DNA of 36,274 nt from a virus: positions 1 to 36,274 of the IMG/VR virus record IMGVR_UViG_3300035390_000051, one strand, 5' to 3'. Every line of letters begins with the position of its first letter. Within the stretch, counting starts at the first letter, position 1. Of this stretch, positions 24,955 to 31,160 are shown one piece after another. The notes under the pieces are model-generated. The model was not told the origin of the DNA. It made no database searches and worked only from the letters and a program-made list of their open reading frames with translations. A program made the position numbers and the translations under genes.

Positions 24955-25257
24955 ATGGACAAGCAGAATGACACCAATAACTATATGGAACTGAAGCATT
25001 CCTTTCTTGACCGGTTCAAGGATGAAGACGTGGAATTCGCCTTCAACTTCAAACGCCCGACCACGCCACAGATCAGCCGTGTGCAGAAAACCGTGCTCAA
25101 GAACGCGGGGCAGGCCTTCCGCAACCTGATCATGGAAACGGTCAACCCCAATCAGAAAGAGGAACTGAAAAAGGCCCTGGACGAATATTCCGGCCTCGCC
25201 TCCACCTTTGGCGGCGCACTCATGGCATCCTGTGGTTTTGGTGACCTGGGAAACTGA
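24955..25257 (+). CDS. Tail assembly chaperone, short product (Mu gp41-like)
   Basis: This 100-residue protein between tube and tape measure genes is the short form of the tail assembly chaperone, made when ribosomes do not shift. It contains 'SFLDRFKDEDVEFAFNFKRP' and 'LKKALDEYSGLASTFGGALM'. Its last codons are GGA AAC TGA, part of a slippery heptamer (25248-25254). AAGGAA lies upstream of the ATG. In Mu, lambda and other long-tailed phages a fixed ratio of short and long chaperone guides tube polymerisation on the tape measure. Confidence 0.85.
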   Translation: MDKQNDTNNYMELKHSFLDRFKDEDVEFAFNFKRPTTPQISRVQKTVLKNAGQAFRNLIMETVNPNQKEELKKALDEYSGLASTFGGALMASCGFGDLGN

Positions 25258-25430
25258 TCCAGCGCAACCTGCAACAAATAGACGGGGACGGCATGACTCA
25301 ATACGCCGTGCTGATAAAGCACTGGCTCCATGAGTCGCCGTCCCCGTCTGTCGAGATATTTGCCCAGCAGGCTGCGCAAGCTATTTGGTTGGAGAAGCGG
25401 TATGGGGGGAACAAGTCCTATATCTCGTAA
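24955..25430 (+). CDS. Tail assembly chaperone, long -1 frameshift product
   Basis: If the ribosome slips back one base on GGGAAAC (25248-25254), translation goes on from CTG 25254 for 58 codons to TAA 25428-25430, giving 158 residues in total. The added part starts 'LIQRNLQQIDGDGMTQYAVL' and contains 'FAQQAAQAIWLEKRYGG'. The -1 frame has a stop at 25242-25244, so the shift must occur within the 13 bases that contain the heptamer. An ATG at 25293 in the extension could also allow internal starts, but it is buried in a hairpin. Confidence 0.82.
25248..25254 (+). promoter_or_regulatory. Programmed -1 frameshift site GGGAAAC
   Basis: The heptamer is in the exact X XXY YYZ phase to the chaperone frame: G GGA AAC, followed at once by the zero-frame TGA. 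It matches the family of sites used in tail assembly chaperones (lambda uses GGGAAAG). The stop immediately after can add ribosome pausing. Confidence 0.85.
25280..25349 (+). other. 70-nt nested hairpin downstream of the frameshift site
   Basis: Three stems stack: AGACGGGGACGGC (25280-25292) with GCCGTCCCCGTCT (25337-25349), GACTCA (25295-25300) with TGAGTC (25331-25336), and GTGCT (25308-25312) with AGCAC (25318-25322) around GATAA. The outer stems are separated only by a 2-base bulge. It begins 25 bases after the heptamer, farther than classical stimulators, but inside the translated extension. Confidence 0.8.
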
Positions 25431-25610
25431 TCAGTCACCTTGGAAATTCTAAGTCTTTTGGGATACGAGGAAGAACATTATTCTTAAAAATGCTTGAATA
25501 TTGGACAAACTTATCACCATCTAGTATCAGCTTGGCAATAACGTAAAGGCTCAATAACTATCTACTCTAGCCTTGGCGTCTTAAAATTCATTTCACAATT
25601 CGGGGTGTAA
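25431..25610. other. A+T-rich leader of the inserted defence cassette
   Basis: This 180-base gene-free stretch is where base composition drops sharply after the chaperone extension. A possible promoter is TTGGCA (25532-25537), 17 bases, TAACTA (25555-25560); the -10 is poor. GGGGTG precedes the first cassette ATG. No terminator is seen, so late phage transcription could also read in. Confidence 0.4.
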
Positions 25611-26435
25611 ATGACAAAGCTGATTGATGGAGTCATTTTCAACAAGTATGACGGACTTGCTGTTTGTCATATTGAATATCTTTCCAAAGAAATAAAAGAT
25701 GTTATAAGGGATAACCTTGTTAGCATTTGCCATGGTGCTGCCCGCGCAGAACGCTTCGCAGAGGCTTCTTTGTATAGTTATAACGCAACATTAAAATCCT
25801 TTCATGGTCGTTATCAAAAAAAACCTCCAGAAACAAAAATTGGGATGATCGGAGAATTCCTTTCGCATATCCTTCTCACTAAGATATTTGATGAGTTTAA
25901 TATAGCTTCAGCGTTTTTTAATTTAGAAGAAAAATCAATAAAAAAAGGTTTTGATCTAATCCTTTTTAGACCTGAAGACCAGACTGGATGGATTACAGAA
26001 GTCAAATCAGGGAATCTCCATAAAGGCAAGAATCACGATCAAACCACTACCGATCTATTGAGAGCGGCTAAAGCAGACCTCGTTAAAAGATTGAACGAGT
26101 CTGAGATAACATACTGGCACAATGCTATTAATACAGTTCAGTGTGCTGTAAACGAGAACAATGACGACAAAAAGACCTTAGAAGAAATATTGCTAAGTGA
26201 AGGAAATTTTGCAGAGGAAGGACGAGCTGCAAGTAATGATAACTGCGTAGTTTTAATTGCTAGTCTTTTTGAGCCACTATCAACCAGAATTACCCCTTCT
26301 CCCGCAAAACTTTTTCTGCAAAAACTGAATGCTGACCAAGCATTTTTAGAAAATATTATTTTTTGTATTCAAAAAGGTACACATGAAAAAGTGGCAGATT
26401 TCTTATTCTCTGAAATTGGCGAAACAAACGCATGA
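25611..26435 (+). CDS. HamA-like nuclease (DUF1837), Hachiman-type defence
   Basis: This 274-residue protein resembles the HamA nuclease: 'GRYQKKPPETKIGMIGEFLS' with Glu82, then 'KKGFDLILFR' with Asp115, and 'WITEVKSG' with Glu130 and Lys132. Together they make a PD-(D/E)XK active site. In Hachiman, HamA is held inactive in a complex with HamB and degrades DNA when phage-made damage is sensed. The stop overlaps the helicase start by ATGA, so the two are made together. A+T-rich codons differ from the phage. It could also be the nuclease of the related AbpAB type; I cannot separate these without a search. Confidence 0.68.
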   Translation: MTKLIDGVIFNKYDGLAVCHIEYLSKEIKDVIRDNLVSICHGAARAERFAEASLYSYNATLKSFHGRYQKKPPETKIGMIGEFLSHILLTKIFDEFNIASAFFNLEEKSIKKGFDLILFRPEDQTGWITEVKSGNLHKGKNHDQTTTDLLRAAKADLVKRLNESEITYWHNAINTVQCAVNENNDDKKTLEEILLSEGNFAEEGRAASNDNCVVLIASLFEPLSTRITPSPAKLFLQKLNADQAFLENIIFCIQKGTHEKVADFLFSEIGETNA

Positions 26436-28930
26436 AAAAAGAACAGCTAACATTAAAAAGCTTAAAACTACCAAGTTTCAAGAGACAGTATGCGCAGCTT
26501 TTTTCACTGTATAAAAAGCTCTTCTTCCAAAAATCTCTTAGCGATACTGACAGGAAGAAATTACTATCAATAGCAGTTCTTTTCACAAATCAGGAAAATA
26601 AAATCATGTCGCAATTAGGCTACAGGATTGCGCTCGCGTATGGAAATAAAACGAATGACTACAGGCCTTTATATGATATTTCTATCAATTCTGGATTAAT
26701 ACCCATTGCCGCACTTATAAAAAAAATAAACACACTCCCAATTAACATTAAGATTGAAGAAAGAGATTCTTTTTTTTCCACGATTGTAGATAGTTATATT
26801 GATATTTTTAGAAAGCAAGACATGGTTCTCACTGAACAGCAATTCCATCTCAACAATTTTTTTATTGGGAACTTATCAAAAAATACAACAGTTGTTGCTC
26901 CTACATCATATGGCAAATCAGAGTTGATAATTTCAGCCATCCAACAATCAATTGGCAAAAAAATTTGTATTATTGTGCCATCAAAAGCTCTTCTTGCGCA
27001 GACAAGAAGAAGAATTATTAACGCAAATCTCGAATGGGTAACTCGAATCGTTTCCCACCCTGAGATGCACAAGCCGAATGACTCCAATTCTATATATATA
27101 CTGACTCAGGAGCGTTTAACAAGAATTTTGAATGCAGATAAATCAATGGCTTTCGAAATTGTTTTAGTAGATGAAGCGCACAATATGCTAGATGGGGATA
27201 GTAGGAATCTTTTGTTGACTTCTACCCTGAGAATGCTCGATTTTCGAAATCCCAAGACCGCTTTCAAGTTCCTTACTCCTTTTATCCAAGACGCGAATAG
27301 CCTTGAATTCCGAGATTTAGCATTTAAATCTGTATGTTTTACTATTGACGAATATATAAAATCAGAAAAAATCTATATCGCTGATTTCAGAAGCGATAAA
27401 GATTATTTTGAATTTTATGACCATTTTTTCCATGAGTATACATCTATCAACAACAATAGCACGGACCCAATCTCCTACATTAAAAATAATTCAAAATGTA
27501 AGAATATTATCTACTTTAATAAGCCAAAAAACGTACAAGAATTTGCTCTTAAATTAGCCTATTCTTTGCCTGAAACACACTCTGAGATGATAGATGAGGC
27601 TGTAGCAGAAATTGGCGCGTCAGTTCATAACCAATACCATCTTTTGCAGTGCATGCGCAGAGGAGTACTGTATCACCATGGGTCGATGTCTGACGCAGTT
27701 AGAAACTATACCGAATATCTATATCAAAATTGCCCGGATATTCGCTATCTTATTTCCAGCTCCACATTGCTAGAAGGAGTAAACCTTCCCATTGAGATTA
27801 TTTTCCTATTAGAAATAACAAAAGGAAGAGGAAACCTTAGTCCCTCTCAATTTAAGAATTTAATAGGAAGAGTTAATAGGTTTGGTGATATCTTCAATGC
27901 GGCCCAAATAGATTCTTTAAAAAAACTCCAACCTGAAATACATCTTGTTGCCTCCGACGATTACAGCCGTAAGAAAGCAAACTACAGGACATTTGTAGAA
28001 AAGGTCATGCATGTTAACAAAAAGCATAAAGACAAGATAAAGAATGTCCTTTTAGAAGGCTCTAAAAGGACTGAAGACAATGAAAAAGAGTACAAACAGA
28101 CACTAATAAGATTAGAAAACATCGAAACGGGAATCACGAAAGATTTTAAATGCCCAATAGTTTCAACAACAGTTGGGTTGAAACTTCTGGAAAATAATAT
28201 TTCAGAAATAAACATTTTTCAGCAGGAAAAGCATATTCAATCAGTCCTTTCAGAAAAAAAATTGATTGTAAAAAAAATAAAAGATTCAAACACATTGATG
28301 ACGACAATAGCAGACGCTTTTGTCGTCTTTATTCCAGTTGAATTAAAGGCGAAAGCGGGCTTGCTTCGATTAAAATCTGAAAAAGCTCAAGCTTTTTATG
28401 CAATGTTTCTTGATTGGAAGATAAACAATACACCTATGGCCAAAATGATAAGTAAGTTCATCAAACAGTGGGGGAAGCTGCCTGATGACGAGCTAATATT
28501 TGTAGGACATAGATGGGGAGATTCAAGTATCGAAGAAAGTTACAGTCTTTTATACACTCGCATGAGCGGAAAAAGTGTTTCAGAAAAAATAAATTTAGCG
28601 ATTGTGCGAATCAAAGAGGAAGAAGATTTTTTTGATTATGAAATTTTCAGATTCATAGAGGTCCTTCACGAACTCAATATGATGGATGAAACTTTCTACA
28701 AAAAGGCGAAATATGGAACAGCTGATTCTGACATAATAACCCTAGTTAAAAATGGATTTAGTCGTGGAATAGCAGAGTTGTTGATTGATAATTATTCTGA
28801 ATATTTTGAATTGTTCGAGGATGGTGGTGTGATTGTTAGTCCGAAAATTCATAACATTATGAAAAGGGATAAATTAGGTTTCTTAAAACGTTATGAAATA
28901 AAGTTAAACGTGAAGATTGAAAACATTTAA
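26432..28930 (+). CDS. HamB-like SF2 DNA helicase, Hachiman-type defence
   Basis: This 832-residue protein is a superfamily 2 helicase. Residues 1-140 are a helical N-terminal domain. Motif I is APTSYGKS (156-163), Ia is 'IVPSKALLAQTRRR' (181-194), II is DEAH (247-250), 'GVLYHHGSMSDAVR' is at 411-424, V is 'SSTLLEGVNLP' (443-453) and VI is 'QFKNLIGRVNRFG' (473-485) with the arginine fingers. The order is of the Ski2-like branch used by HamB. The C-terminal 340 residues are helical and of unknown fold. HamB senses damaged or open DNA and releases the nuclease. No third gene is seen. Confidence 0.72.
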   Translation: MKKEQLTLKSLKLPSFKRQYAQLFSLYKKLFFQKSLSDTDRKKLLSIAVLFTNQENKIMSQLGYRIALAYGNKTNDYRPLYDISINSGLIPIAALIKKINTLPINIKIEERDSFFSTIVDSYIDIFRKQDMVLTEQQFHLNNFFIGNLSKNTTVVAPTSYGKSELIISAIQQSIGKKICIIVPSKALLAQTRRRIINANLEWVTRIVSHPEMHKPNDSNSIYILTQERLTRILNADKSMAFEIVLVDEAHNMLDGDSRNLLLTSTLRMLDFRNPKTAFKFLTPFIQDANSLEFRDLAFKSVCFTIDEYIKSEKIYIADFRSDKDYFEFYDHFFHEYTSINNNSTDPISYIKNNSKCKNIIYFNKPKNVQEFALKLAYSLPETHSEMIDEAVAEIGASVHNQYHLLQCMRRGVLYHHGSMSDAVRNYTEYLYQNCPDIRYLISSSTLLEGVNLPIEIIFLLEITKGRGNLSPSQFKNLIGRVNRFGDIFNAAQIDSLKKLQPEIHLVASDDYSRKKANYRTFVEKVMHVNKKHKDKIKNVLLEGSKRTEDNEKEYKQTLIRLENIETGITKDFKCPIVSTTVGLKLLENNISEINIFQQEKHIQSVLSEKKLIVKKIKDSNTLMTTIADAFVVFIPVELKAKAGLLRLKSEKAQAFYAMFLDWKINNTPMAKMISKFIKQWGKLPDDELIFVGHRWGDSSIEESYSLLYTRMSGKSVSEKINLAIVRIKEEEDFFDYEIFRFIEVLHELNMMDETFYKKAKYGTADSDIITLVKNGFSRGIAELLIDNYSEYFELFEDGGVIVSPKIHNIMKRDKLGFLKRYEIKLNVKIENI

Positions 28931-29126
28931 GTATCTTTTATAGCTCCTCTCAACGGATTAGAAAGGTTTAATTTGGAAAGAACATTTTTTGCTTAAAATC
29001 TAAAATTAAGCGGGAAATATTATTAAGCAATTTTGATAGACTAAAAACATTGCAGCACGACTAAAACAACAGCCACCCCTTACACACCGTCCTGAACTAA
29101 AATCTCTACGCGGCTATTCTAGCCAC
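28931..29126. other. Gap between defence cassette and tape measure gene
   Basis: This 196-base stretch starts A+T-rich and returns to phage-like composition near 29060. A weak inverted repeat GCTTAA/TTAAGC (28991-28996, 29006-29011) follows TTTTTT, but this is not a usual terminator. The last bases hold GGCTA-TTC-TAGCC just before the tape measure ATG. That ATG has no clear ribosome-binding site. Confidence 0.45.
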
Positions 29127-31160
29127 ATGGAAATTTTCAGCGTCATGGCATCCATGTCACTCATCGACATGATTACGGCACCGCTCAGAAGCATCGGTGC
29201 GCAGATGAATGTCACCAACAAGGCAGCGGCATCGCTCAGTAGCGGTGCCCTTGCGTTGGCAAAATCGCTTTTACCCATCGCCCTGGTCGCAGGGGTAGTG
29301 TTGGGAGGGCTTGGCGCGATGGTGCTCTCAACGGTGGAAACACAAAAAGCCCTTGGGGAACTGGGAAGTGTTGGTATCACGCAATTCGGGGCAATGGAAG
29401 AAGCCGCCACGGATTTTTCCAATACATTCTCCGGCACGACCAAAAGCGATTTTCTCTATGCCGCTTATGATATTAAGTCGGGAATATCATCTCTCTCTGA
29501 TGAAGGTATTGCCGGTTTTACTGGGTTGTCGGCACTAACCGCCAAAGCGACCAAGGCGACCGTTGGACAAATGACCAGCCTCTTTGCCACCGGATATGGA
29601 ATATATAAAGGCTATTACTCGCAAATGACGGACATGCAGTTCGGAGAAATGTTCTCGGCGGGAATCTCGGCCAGTGTGCAAGCCTTCAAGACGGACGGAT
29701 CAAAGATGTCACAGGCGATAAGTACGCTTGGTGCCACGGCAACTAACTCCAATATTCCTCTCCAAGAGCAGCTCGCTATTTTAGGTGTCCTGCAAGCCAC
29801 GATGCCCGGTGCGGAAGCGGGAACCAAATACAAAGCATTTCTGAATGCTGCGGGTGCGGCAGGAGGTAAGTTGGGATTGGATTTTCTGGATGCCAATAAT
29901 CAACTAAAATCCACGCCCGAAATTCTTGAAGCCATGCGCGCCCAATTTGGTCCCACCATTGATGCTATGGAAAAAATGCAAATAAAGAAGGCGTTCGGCA
30001 CGGATGAAGCCGTGGCGTTTATCGACTTGCTGTATACCAAAACTGGCGACTTAAAAGGCGGCATACAGTCTGTCGGTGGCGCAATGGTGCAGGGGCAGGA
30101 ATTTACCAATGACATGGCCCAACATATGAACAATGACCTTGGTGCATCCATGGCGTTGGTAGGGCAACAATTCCATAACCTTTGCGAAATTGTAGGTTCT
30201 GTATTCGCTCCAGCCGTGGGTACGGTAACAGGGGCTTTATCTTGTCTTATTCTTATGTTGCAAAAGTTGGCCGCCAGCCCGGTCGGAAAATTCTTGCTCG
30301 TCGTTATCGCAGTCCTTTCGGTGACCATAATCACGGTCACTCTTCTTTCCGGTGCGGTCTGGGCCGGGGCAGCGGCATGGGCAGCCTTCAACACAATGAT
30401 TCTCGCCAATCCTATCGGCATTATTGTTCTGGCCGTGGTCGGTCTCGTAGCCGTCCTTATCGCCCTGTACAACAATTTTGATTCGGTGCGGGAAGTTGTG
30501 GATGCGTTTATCGGATGGATATCGCGCTGCTACAATGCCATTAAGACCTTTGTTTCCTTTTGGCATGATATCGATTTGAATGCCGCTCTTTGGATATCTT
30601 TCCCTGAGTTATACGCTAGTATCTCCGACTTTTGGGATGGTCTGACATCGCTGTTCGACATCGACCTGTCCGAATCCGGGCGCAAGCTCATCATGACACT
30701 GGCCTCCGGCATCAAGTCCGTCATTACCGCGCCGTATGATCTGGTCAAAGCCGGGCTGTCCAAAGTCCGCCAACTCCTGCCGTTCTCGGATGCGCAGGAA
30801 GGACCGCTCTCTTCGCTCACGCTGTCCGGCACCAAAATCATGGACACGCTCGGCTCCGGCATCCGTGCCGCTGCCCCAAATTTGCACGCCACTGCATCCG
30901 CTGCATTGGCAGGCGTGGCTCTGGCCGCCAATCTTGCGGTCACCCCGCCTGCCATCTCCTCACCACAGGGACCAACCCCGATCCAGATGCACACACCCGC
31001 GCCGGATCGGGCTACGGTCTCCCCGTCTGGTAACAGCGTCACCATTCAGCATCTTACTGTTCAGTTGCCGGGCGTTGAGGACGTGGAAGGTTTTGTCGCC
31101 GCATTACAGCAACTCGTCGCACAGCATGACGGTTCCGGTAACAAAGGAGAATTCGCATGA
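29127..31160 (+). CDS. Tail tape measure protein
   Basis: This 677-residue protein sets tail length and is ejected with the DNA. The N-terminal part is helical with a hydrophobic segment (about 45-70, SLLPIALVAGVVLGGLGAMV). The middle resembles the tape measure core ('LGATATNSNIPLQEQLAILG', 'MPGAEAGTKYKAFLNAAGAA'). A long membrane-active stretch lies at about 388-453. The Pro-rich C-terminus is typical. It is shorter than many tape measures, so the tail should be fairly short. The start at 29127 (MEIFSVM) has no clear Shine-Dalgarno; ATG 29145 is possible. It is separated from its usual partner, the chaperone, by 3.7 kb. Confidence 0.88.
   Translation: MEIFSVMASMSLIDMITAPLRSIGAQMNVTNKAAASLSSGALALAKSLLPIALVAGVVLGGLGAMVLSTVETQKALGELGSVGITQFGAMEEAATDFSNTFSGTTKSDFLYAAYDIKSGISSLSDEGIAGFTGLSALTAKATKATVGQMTSLFATGYGIYKGYYSQMTDMQFGEMFSAGISASVQAFKTDGSKMSQAISTLGATATNSNIPLQEQLAILGVLQATMPGAEAGTKYKAFLNAAGAAGGKLGLDFLDANNQLKSTPEILEAMRAQFGPTIDAMEKMQIKKAFGTDEAVAFIDLLYTKTGDLKGGIQSVGGAMVQGQEFTNDMAQHMNNDLGASMALVGQQFHNLCEIVGSVFAPAVGTVTGALSCLILMLQKLAASPVGKFLLVVIAVLSVTIITVTLLSGAVWAGAAAWAAFNTMILANPIGIIVLAVVGLVAVLIALYNNFDSVREVVDAFIGWISRCYNAIKTFVSFWHDIDLNAALWISFPELYASISDFWDGLTSLFDIDLSESGRKLIMTLASGIKSVITAPYDLVKAGLSKVRQLLPFSDAQEGPLSSLTLSGTKIMDTLGSGIRAAAPNLHATASAALAGVALAANLAVTPPAISSPQGPTPIQMHTPAPDRATVSPSGNSVTIQHLTVQLPGVEDVEGFVAALQQLVAQHDGSGNKGEFA

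Follow-up and report, generated by a model that had tools for sequence, protein, structure and literature searches.

A divergent Hachiman nuclease-helicase pair as probable moron cargo beside the tail chaperone gene of a Mu-like phage

Why would a nuclease and a helicase be encoded in the middle of a phage tail operon? We addressed this question in the virus entry IMGVR_UViG_3300035390_000051 of IMG/VR, whose complete 36,274-bp stretch was analysed (the window). An earlier note, made from the sequence, had placed two A+T-rich genes coupled by ATGA at positions 25611-28930 and had read them as a HamA-HamB pair. Both open reading frames are indeed intact at these positions on the plus strand (Table 1), with a GC content of 0.33-0.36 compared to about 0.56 around them. 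Altogether, the two genes very probably make up a complete Hachiman system that a Mu-like temperate phage bears as moron cargo, at a recurrently used site beside the chaperone gene.

Table 1 Features of the window and cargo of the chaperone-tape measure site in close relatives (L, locus).
Feature	Coordinates	Strand	Basis
Tail assembly chaperone, short form (left neighbour)	24955..25257	+	PHROG 20303 (tail), position between tube and tape measure, slippery site
Slippery heptamer GGGAAAC (25248-25254) and -1 frameshift extension	25248..25430	+	heptamer in frame, kept in close relatives
AT-rich cargo segment	25431..29089	+	blastn homology to relatives; GC 0.33-0.36; inserted compared with empty relatives
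hamA, 274-aa predicted PD-(D/E)XK effector nuclease of Hachiman	25611..26435	+	intact ORF, family profiles, fold
hamA predicted catalytic codons	E82 25854-25856; D115 25953-25955; E130 25998-26000; K132 26004-26006	+	invariant in 29-sequence alignment
ATGA start-stop overlap of hamA and hamB	26432..26435	+	junction sequence GCATGAAAAAA
hamB, 832-aa Ski2-like SF2 helicase with N-terminal all-helical region (about residues 8-124)	26432..28930	+	PADLOC, PDB relatives, model
Conserved leader 5' of tape measure	29090..29126	+	100 bp upstream of ATG aligned, 11 phages
Tail tape measure protein (right neighbour)	29127..31160	+	PHROG 28, E 1.3e-55
Cargo of L009/L059: AAA_15 ATPase and 349-aa protein			PADLOC HEC-03B and NsnB
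Cargo of L062 (copy: L106) and L065: AbiJ_NTD4 and DUF7014			two phages
Cargo of L064: PLD-like (PLD-family) protein and small protein			weak zinc-ribbon matches of the small protein
Cargo of L063: 166-aa protein			no family match
Empty sites: L060, L061, L067, L068, L071; L073			L073 with direct gene overlap

The record encodes a Mu-type transposase and a transposition protein together with terminase, portal, head, sheath, tube, tape measure and baseplate proteins, and on this gene content the label Mu-like holds. A search of plasmids for the tail sheath returned no match. According to PHROG profiles, the hamAB pair is preceded by the tail tube protein and the chaperone ORF, the latter labelled 'minor tail protein' in PHROG, and is followed by the tape-measure protein; these matches and the collinear relatives agree with the placement between chaperone and tape measure that the earlier note had given. 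The chaperone ORF ends at 25257 and its -1 frameshifted product at 25430, and the same in-frame heptamer is found in close relatives, where the -1 extension spans 56-61 codons.

The blastn similarity to relatives ends near 25404 and restarts at 29090. Considering the stop of the frameshifted chaperone and this restart of homology, the insert spans approximately positions 25431-29089, or some 3.66 kb, and both the chaperone extension and the conserved tape-measure leader are left intact. The pair takes the place of a spacer of 42-84 bp between the frameshifted chaperone stop and the tape-measure start, a spacer of which the leader is a part in the empty relatives. In the leader alignment of 11 related phages, a GCGGCTA..TCT.GCC motif adjoins the tape-measure ATG and may serve as a promoter or form a hairpin at the start site.

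The use of this site was compared within the closest group of 52 loci obtained by a tail-tube scan, to which a scan with an alignment of tape-measure proteins contributed little more. The junction between chaperone and tape measure measures 128-3870 bp in close relatives and is the sole strongly length-variable one, the other junctions being short and their few large values corresponding to ORF start-call artefacts. Other AT-rich cargo occupies the site in five of the 11 close relatives (Table 1). In L062 to L065, GC content drops to 0.44-0.45 in the inserts, compared to 0.58-0.65 for the loci, and the cargo genes are encoded on the opposite strand. In L009 (5108-7772 of IMGVR_UViG_2890947945_000006) the ATPase, of 535 aa and matched by HEC-03B and NsnB, stands beside the 349-aa protein, which gave no significant family match; the two form a candidate defence pair.

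In a related lineage (L097, L098, L100, L101, L104 and L108), AT-rich cargo is found on the opposite flank of the chaperone, between it and the tube; in the members whose slippery site can be read, the chaperone is near the tape measure or overlaps it. This tube-side cargo includes a RelA/SpoT protein (PADLOC PDC-S33, E 1.1e-48), a PD-T4-7-like protein (E 2e-7) and several unassigned proteins. Among the proteins scanned, no Pfam or PADLOC match was obtained for the cargo of L101 (10636-12395), L104 (10603-12473) and L098 (10539-11939). The cargo of both L101 and L104 consists of a small protein and a larger one that is hydrophobic over a segment close to the C-terminus. Thus, as far as gene content can tell, the pair sits in a site where related phages hold other defence-type genes, and the flanks of the tail chaperone look like a defence-cargo site, on the evidence of small numbers of related phages and partial contigs in which 'defence' refers to the family names of the cargo.

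Homologues of the pair were collected by a helicase-alignment search, which yielded 42 bacterial loci and three viral contigs, whereas scans with the single HamA or HamB sequence returned no relative in genomes or viral contigs. HamB is immediately preceded by a HamA homologue in nearly all loci with enough flank; this two-gene order is conserved in about 40 genomes, which belong to several phyla, and short overlaps or gaps of 0-20 bp between the two genes are also usual there. These homologues are found on bacterial chromosomes, plasmids and inovirus-like contigs. In the HamB tree, the window protein groups with a Saccharospirillaceae sequence (48% identity) within a mainly Pseudomonadota clade.

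Four loci have a context of their own. Two 12-kb contigs resembling filamentous phage carry hamAB (L055 315-3578 and L056 594-3857), the first of them with a Zot domain and a weak Rep_trans match; in these, Hachiman is carried by an inovirus-like element. In a Staphylococcus aureus 'plasmid' record (NZ_CP077937.1, L002 5419-9200), hamA and hamB are split by apparent frameshifts and lie directly 3' of rlmH; as rlmH is the SCC integration site, this locus may be an SCC-type island. In OY725877.1 (L003 5709-8445), the HamB homologue is accompanied by a HamA remnant of only 101 aa and adjoins DUF3800 and HsdS-like proteins.

Being located in a late operon, the pair could serve the lytic cycle of the phage itself, taking part in transposition, recombination or the degradation of host DNA. 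Both genes run in the direction of the tail genes, so that late read-through transcription is possible, and the promoter scan, which found 6 sites where 12.5 were expected, detected no separate promoter and no promoter-like site just 5' of hamA. Nevertheless, none of the relatives found that share the tail module carries HamAB, some of them have unrelated cargo in its place, often on the opposite strand, and the homologues are spread over chromosomes, plasmids and inovirus-like contigs. A lytic role is therefore very unlikely. Since several relatives hold their cargo opposite in strand to the tail operon, HamAB carried as moron cargo probably has signals of its own for expression from the prophage.

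The family assignment of the helicase is clear from profile searches. The HamB1 profile of PADLOC matches residues 4-809 of HamB, i.e. nearly end to end, with an E value of 1.9e-67. The SF2 motifs APTSYGKS, DEAH and STLLEGVNLP and the GRVxRF region are present, with key residues invariant across 22 homologues, in agreement with the Ski2-like SF2 helicase bearing all main motifs that had been proposed. The AlphaFold2 model (pLDDT 86.7) is all-helical over residues 8-124, as would be expected of the N-terminal bundle with which HamB binds HamA, and Foldseek returned the folds of Pol theta, Hel308, AbpB and HamB. By sequence, HamB is closest among PDB entries to the helicases found in complexes of AbpAB and Hachiman, followed by Hel308 and Pol theta. 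The helicase chain of PDB 9wh1 is labelled 'DNA polymerase theta (Helicase domain only)' and its chain A AbpA/HamA C-terminal; with such a partner chain, 9wh1 appears to be an AbpAB-type bacterial complex.

The HamA protein is more divergent. On its own it has no match in Pfam, and the HamA model of PADLOC gives an E value of only 0.001, over the motif region. The family tells more: in the 29-protein alignment, the Pfam HamA model PF08878 matches 20 members (best E 7.9e-25), among them the one nearest to the window protein (L013, 55% identical), which scores 35.9 bits for a cutoff of 25, and six PADLOC HamA models each match 8-21 members. The residues Glu82, Asp115, Glu130 and Lys132, which the earlier note had picked out as a PD-(D/E)XK site, are all invariant in this alignment, as are G78, G81, K112, G113 and W169. 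The predicted structure (pLDDT 93.5) has a single PDB match at E<=0.001 in Foldseek, chain 8vxy_A, the HamA of E. coli Hachiman (E 2.3e-4, 11% identity). A direct hhalign comparison of the family with the canonical HamA1 profile, built from two members only, gave a probability of 0.4%, and a search of the HamA profile against PDB gave chance matches only, so that membership rests on Pfam, PADLOC and the fold.

The family profile matches together with the fold match point to a divergent HamA, nearly missed by current profiles. As the window HamA falls below the profile thresholds, annotation pipelines may overlook such pairs. The HamA-HamB layout read in the earlier note is supported, HamB being recognised by its profile and HamA by the family profiles, its predicted fold and the conserved gene order. 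Judged by profiles and structural models, the pair is a divergent member of Hachiman, a known system rather than a new one, with its predicted catalytic residues intact.

The same note had left room for an AbpAB-like system. In AbpA, a Cap4-like nuclease at the N-terminus is joined to a HamA-like domain that is inactive (PMC12278908), and in an AbpAB-type variant the real nuclease would be a Cap4-like domain and the HamA-like part a dead adaptor. Two observations lean this way: the AbpAB-type helicases of 9wh1 and 8zue rank above the ECOR31 HamB as sequence relatives of the window HamB, and chain A of 9wh1 bears the AbpA/HamA C-terminal label. However, the 274-aa protein has no N-terminal Cap4-like domain and aligns end to end with its HamA relatives, and its fold match in PDB is HamA. 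Its E130-x-K132 pair, which would correspond to E138/K140 of ECOR31 by inferred residue equivalence, is intact and invariant, whereas the HamA site of AbpA is dead (PMC12278908). The AbpAB alternative was thus dropped as highly improbable. It is hardly credible that the insertion arose by chimeric assembly or represents a decayed stretch, non-functional in the phage. Although the record is an IMG/VR entry, both flanks are homologous to and collinear with relatives up to the insert edges, independent contigs hold other inserts at the same boundaries, and both ORFs are intact with all motifs.

For a divergent Hachiman system carried as cargo, we infer an anti-phage function, and the model of its action, for the trigger and the outcome alike, is taken by analogy from E. 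coli ECOR31 HamAB (PMC12278908). HamB would scan double-stranded DNA and keep HamA inactive. A free single-stranded DNA end, or other damage caused by an infecting phage, would enter HamB, and ATP hydrolysis would then activate HamA, leading to the degradation of phage and host DNA. Infection would be aborted and the lysogen population protected. As Mu-like transposition yields nicks and branched DNA, the phage would have to avoid or tolerate the triggering of its own HamAB. By what means it tolerates a self-carried, DNA-damage-triggered nuclease, while itself replicating by transposition, becomes a testable question.

The site is occupied in six of 11 phages of the leader lineages compared with none of seven from lineages with the chaperone and tape-measure genes coupled (Fisher p 0.04), a descriptive contrast only, chosen post hoc with seven of the coupled phages picked and related phages counted as independent. 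We tentatively propose, at a little short of an even chance, that the chaperone flanks are an undescribed anti-phage exchange site in this Mu-like group and that the leader confers tolerance to insertion, so that cargo would be held there in leader lineages, whereas coupled lineages would have none or place it 5' of the chaperone; the HamAB carried here would then have to ignore the phage's own transposition nicks and branched DNA. In the literature searched, mostly open-access texts, neither a chaperone-flanking cargo site nor Hachiman in a Mu-like phage was found. Reading the genes beside the chaperone in these phages would offer a simple handle on new phage-borne defence genes, and candidates for new systems are those with no family match, i.e. 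the 349-aa partner of L009, the 166-aa protein of L063 and the two-gene sets of L101 and L104.

Morons had been said in the earlier note to sit usually at prophage edges or next to lysis genes, which is too strong a statement. HK97 gp15, a superinfection-exclusion moron said to go back to Cumby et al. in 2012, reportedly lies in the tail morphogenesis region near the chaperone and the tape measure, a position resembling that of the window pair; it is, however, a small single membrane protein of a lambdoid siphophage, unrelated to the pair in sequence and mechanism. A second counter-case is Tab of the Mu-like phage JBD26, located in the late operon between terminase genes (PMC10884400). Like the window pair, it is a defence moron within a late structural operon of a Mu-like phage, but it is a single 83-aa protein that blocks tail assembly, whereas the window encodes a nuclease-helicase pair. 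Rousset et al. (2022, PMC9122126) described defence hotspots in P2-like phages and in P4-like satellites, which likewise offer a fixed site of temperate phages with interchangeable defence genes, but in another phage family and at another site than the flank of the tail chaperone; a word search of PMC9122126 found neither 'Mu-like' nor 'tape measure'.

As for the proteins themselves, the E. coli AbpAB system (PDB 8zue; PMC10732053) shares a related Ski2-like helicase and a HamA-like domain, C-terminal in AbpA, but its additional N-terminal nuclease and dead HamA site are features that the window protein does not have. The closest counterpart is Hachiman HamAB of E. coli ECOR31 (Tuck et al. 2024, PMC12278908), with the same nuclease-helicase operon, HamA fold, E-x-K site and Ski2-like HamB, for which an N-terminal helical bundle is predicted in the window protein; the window system differs in its divergent HamA, in a HamB of 832 aa compared to 1174 and in its location within a Mu-like tail operon. 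Hachiman itself and morons in Mu-like late operons, such as Tab, are already known, and what stands out is the location, a divergent Hachiman at a probable tail-chaperone cargo site.
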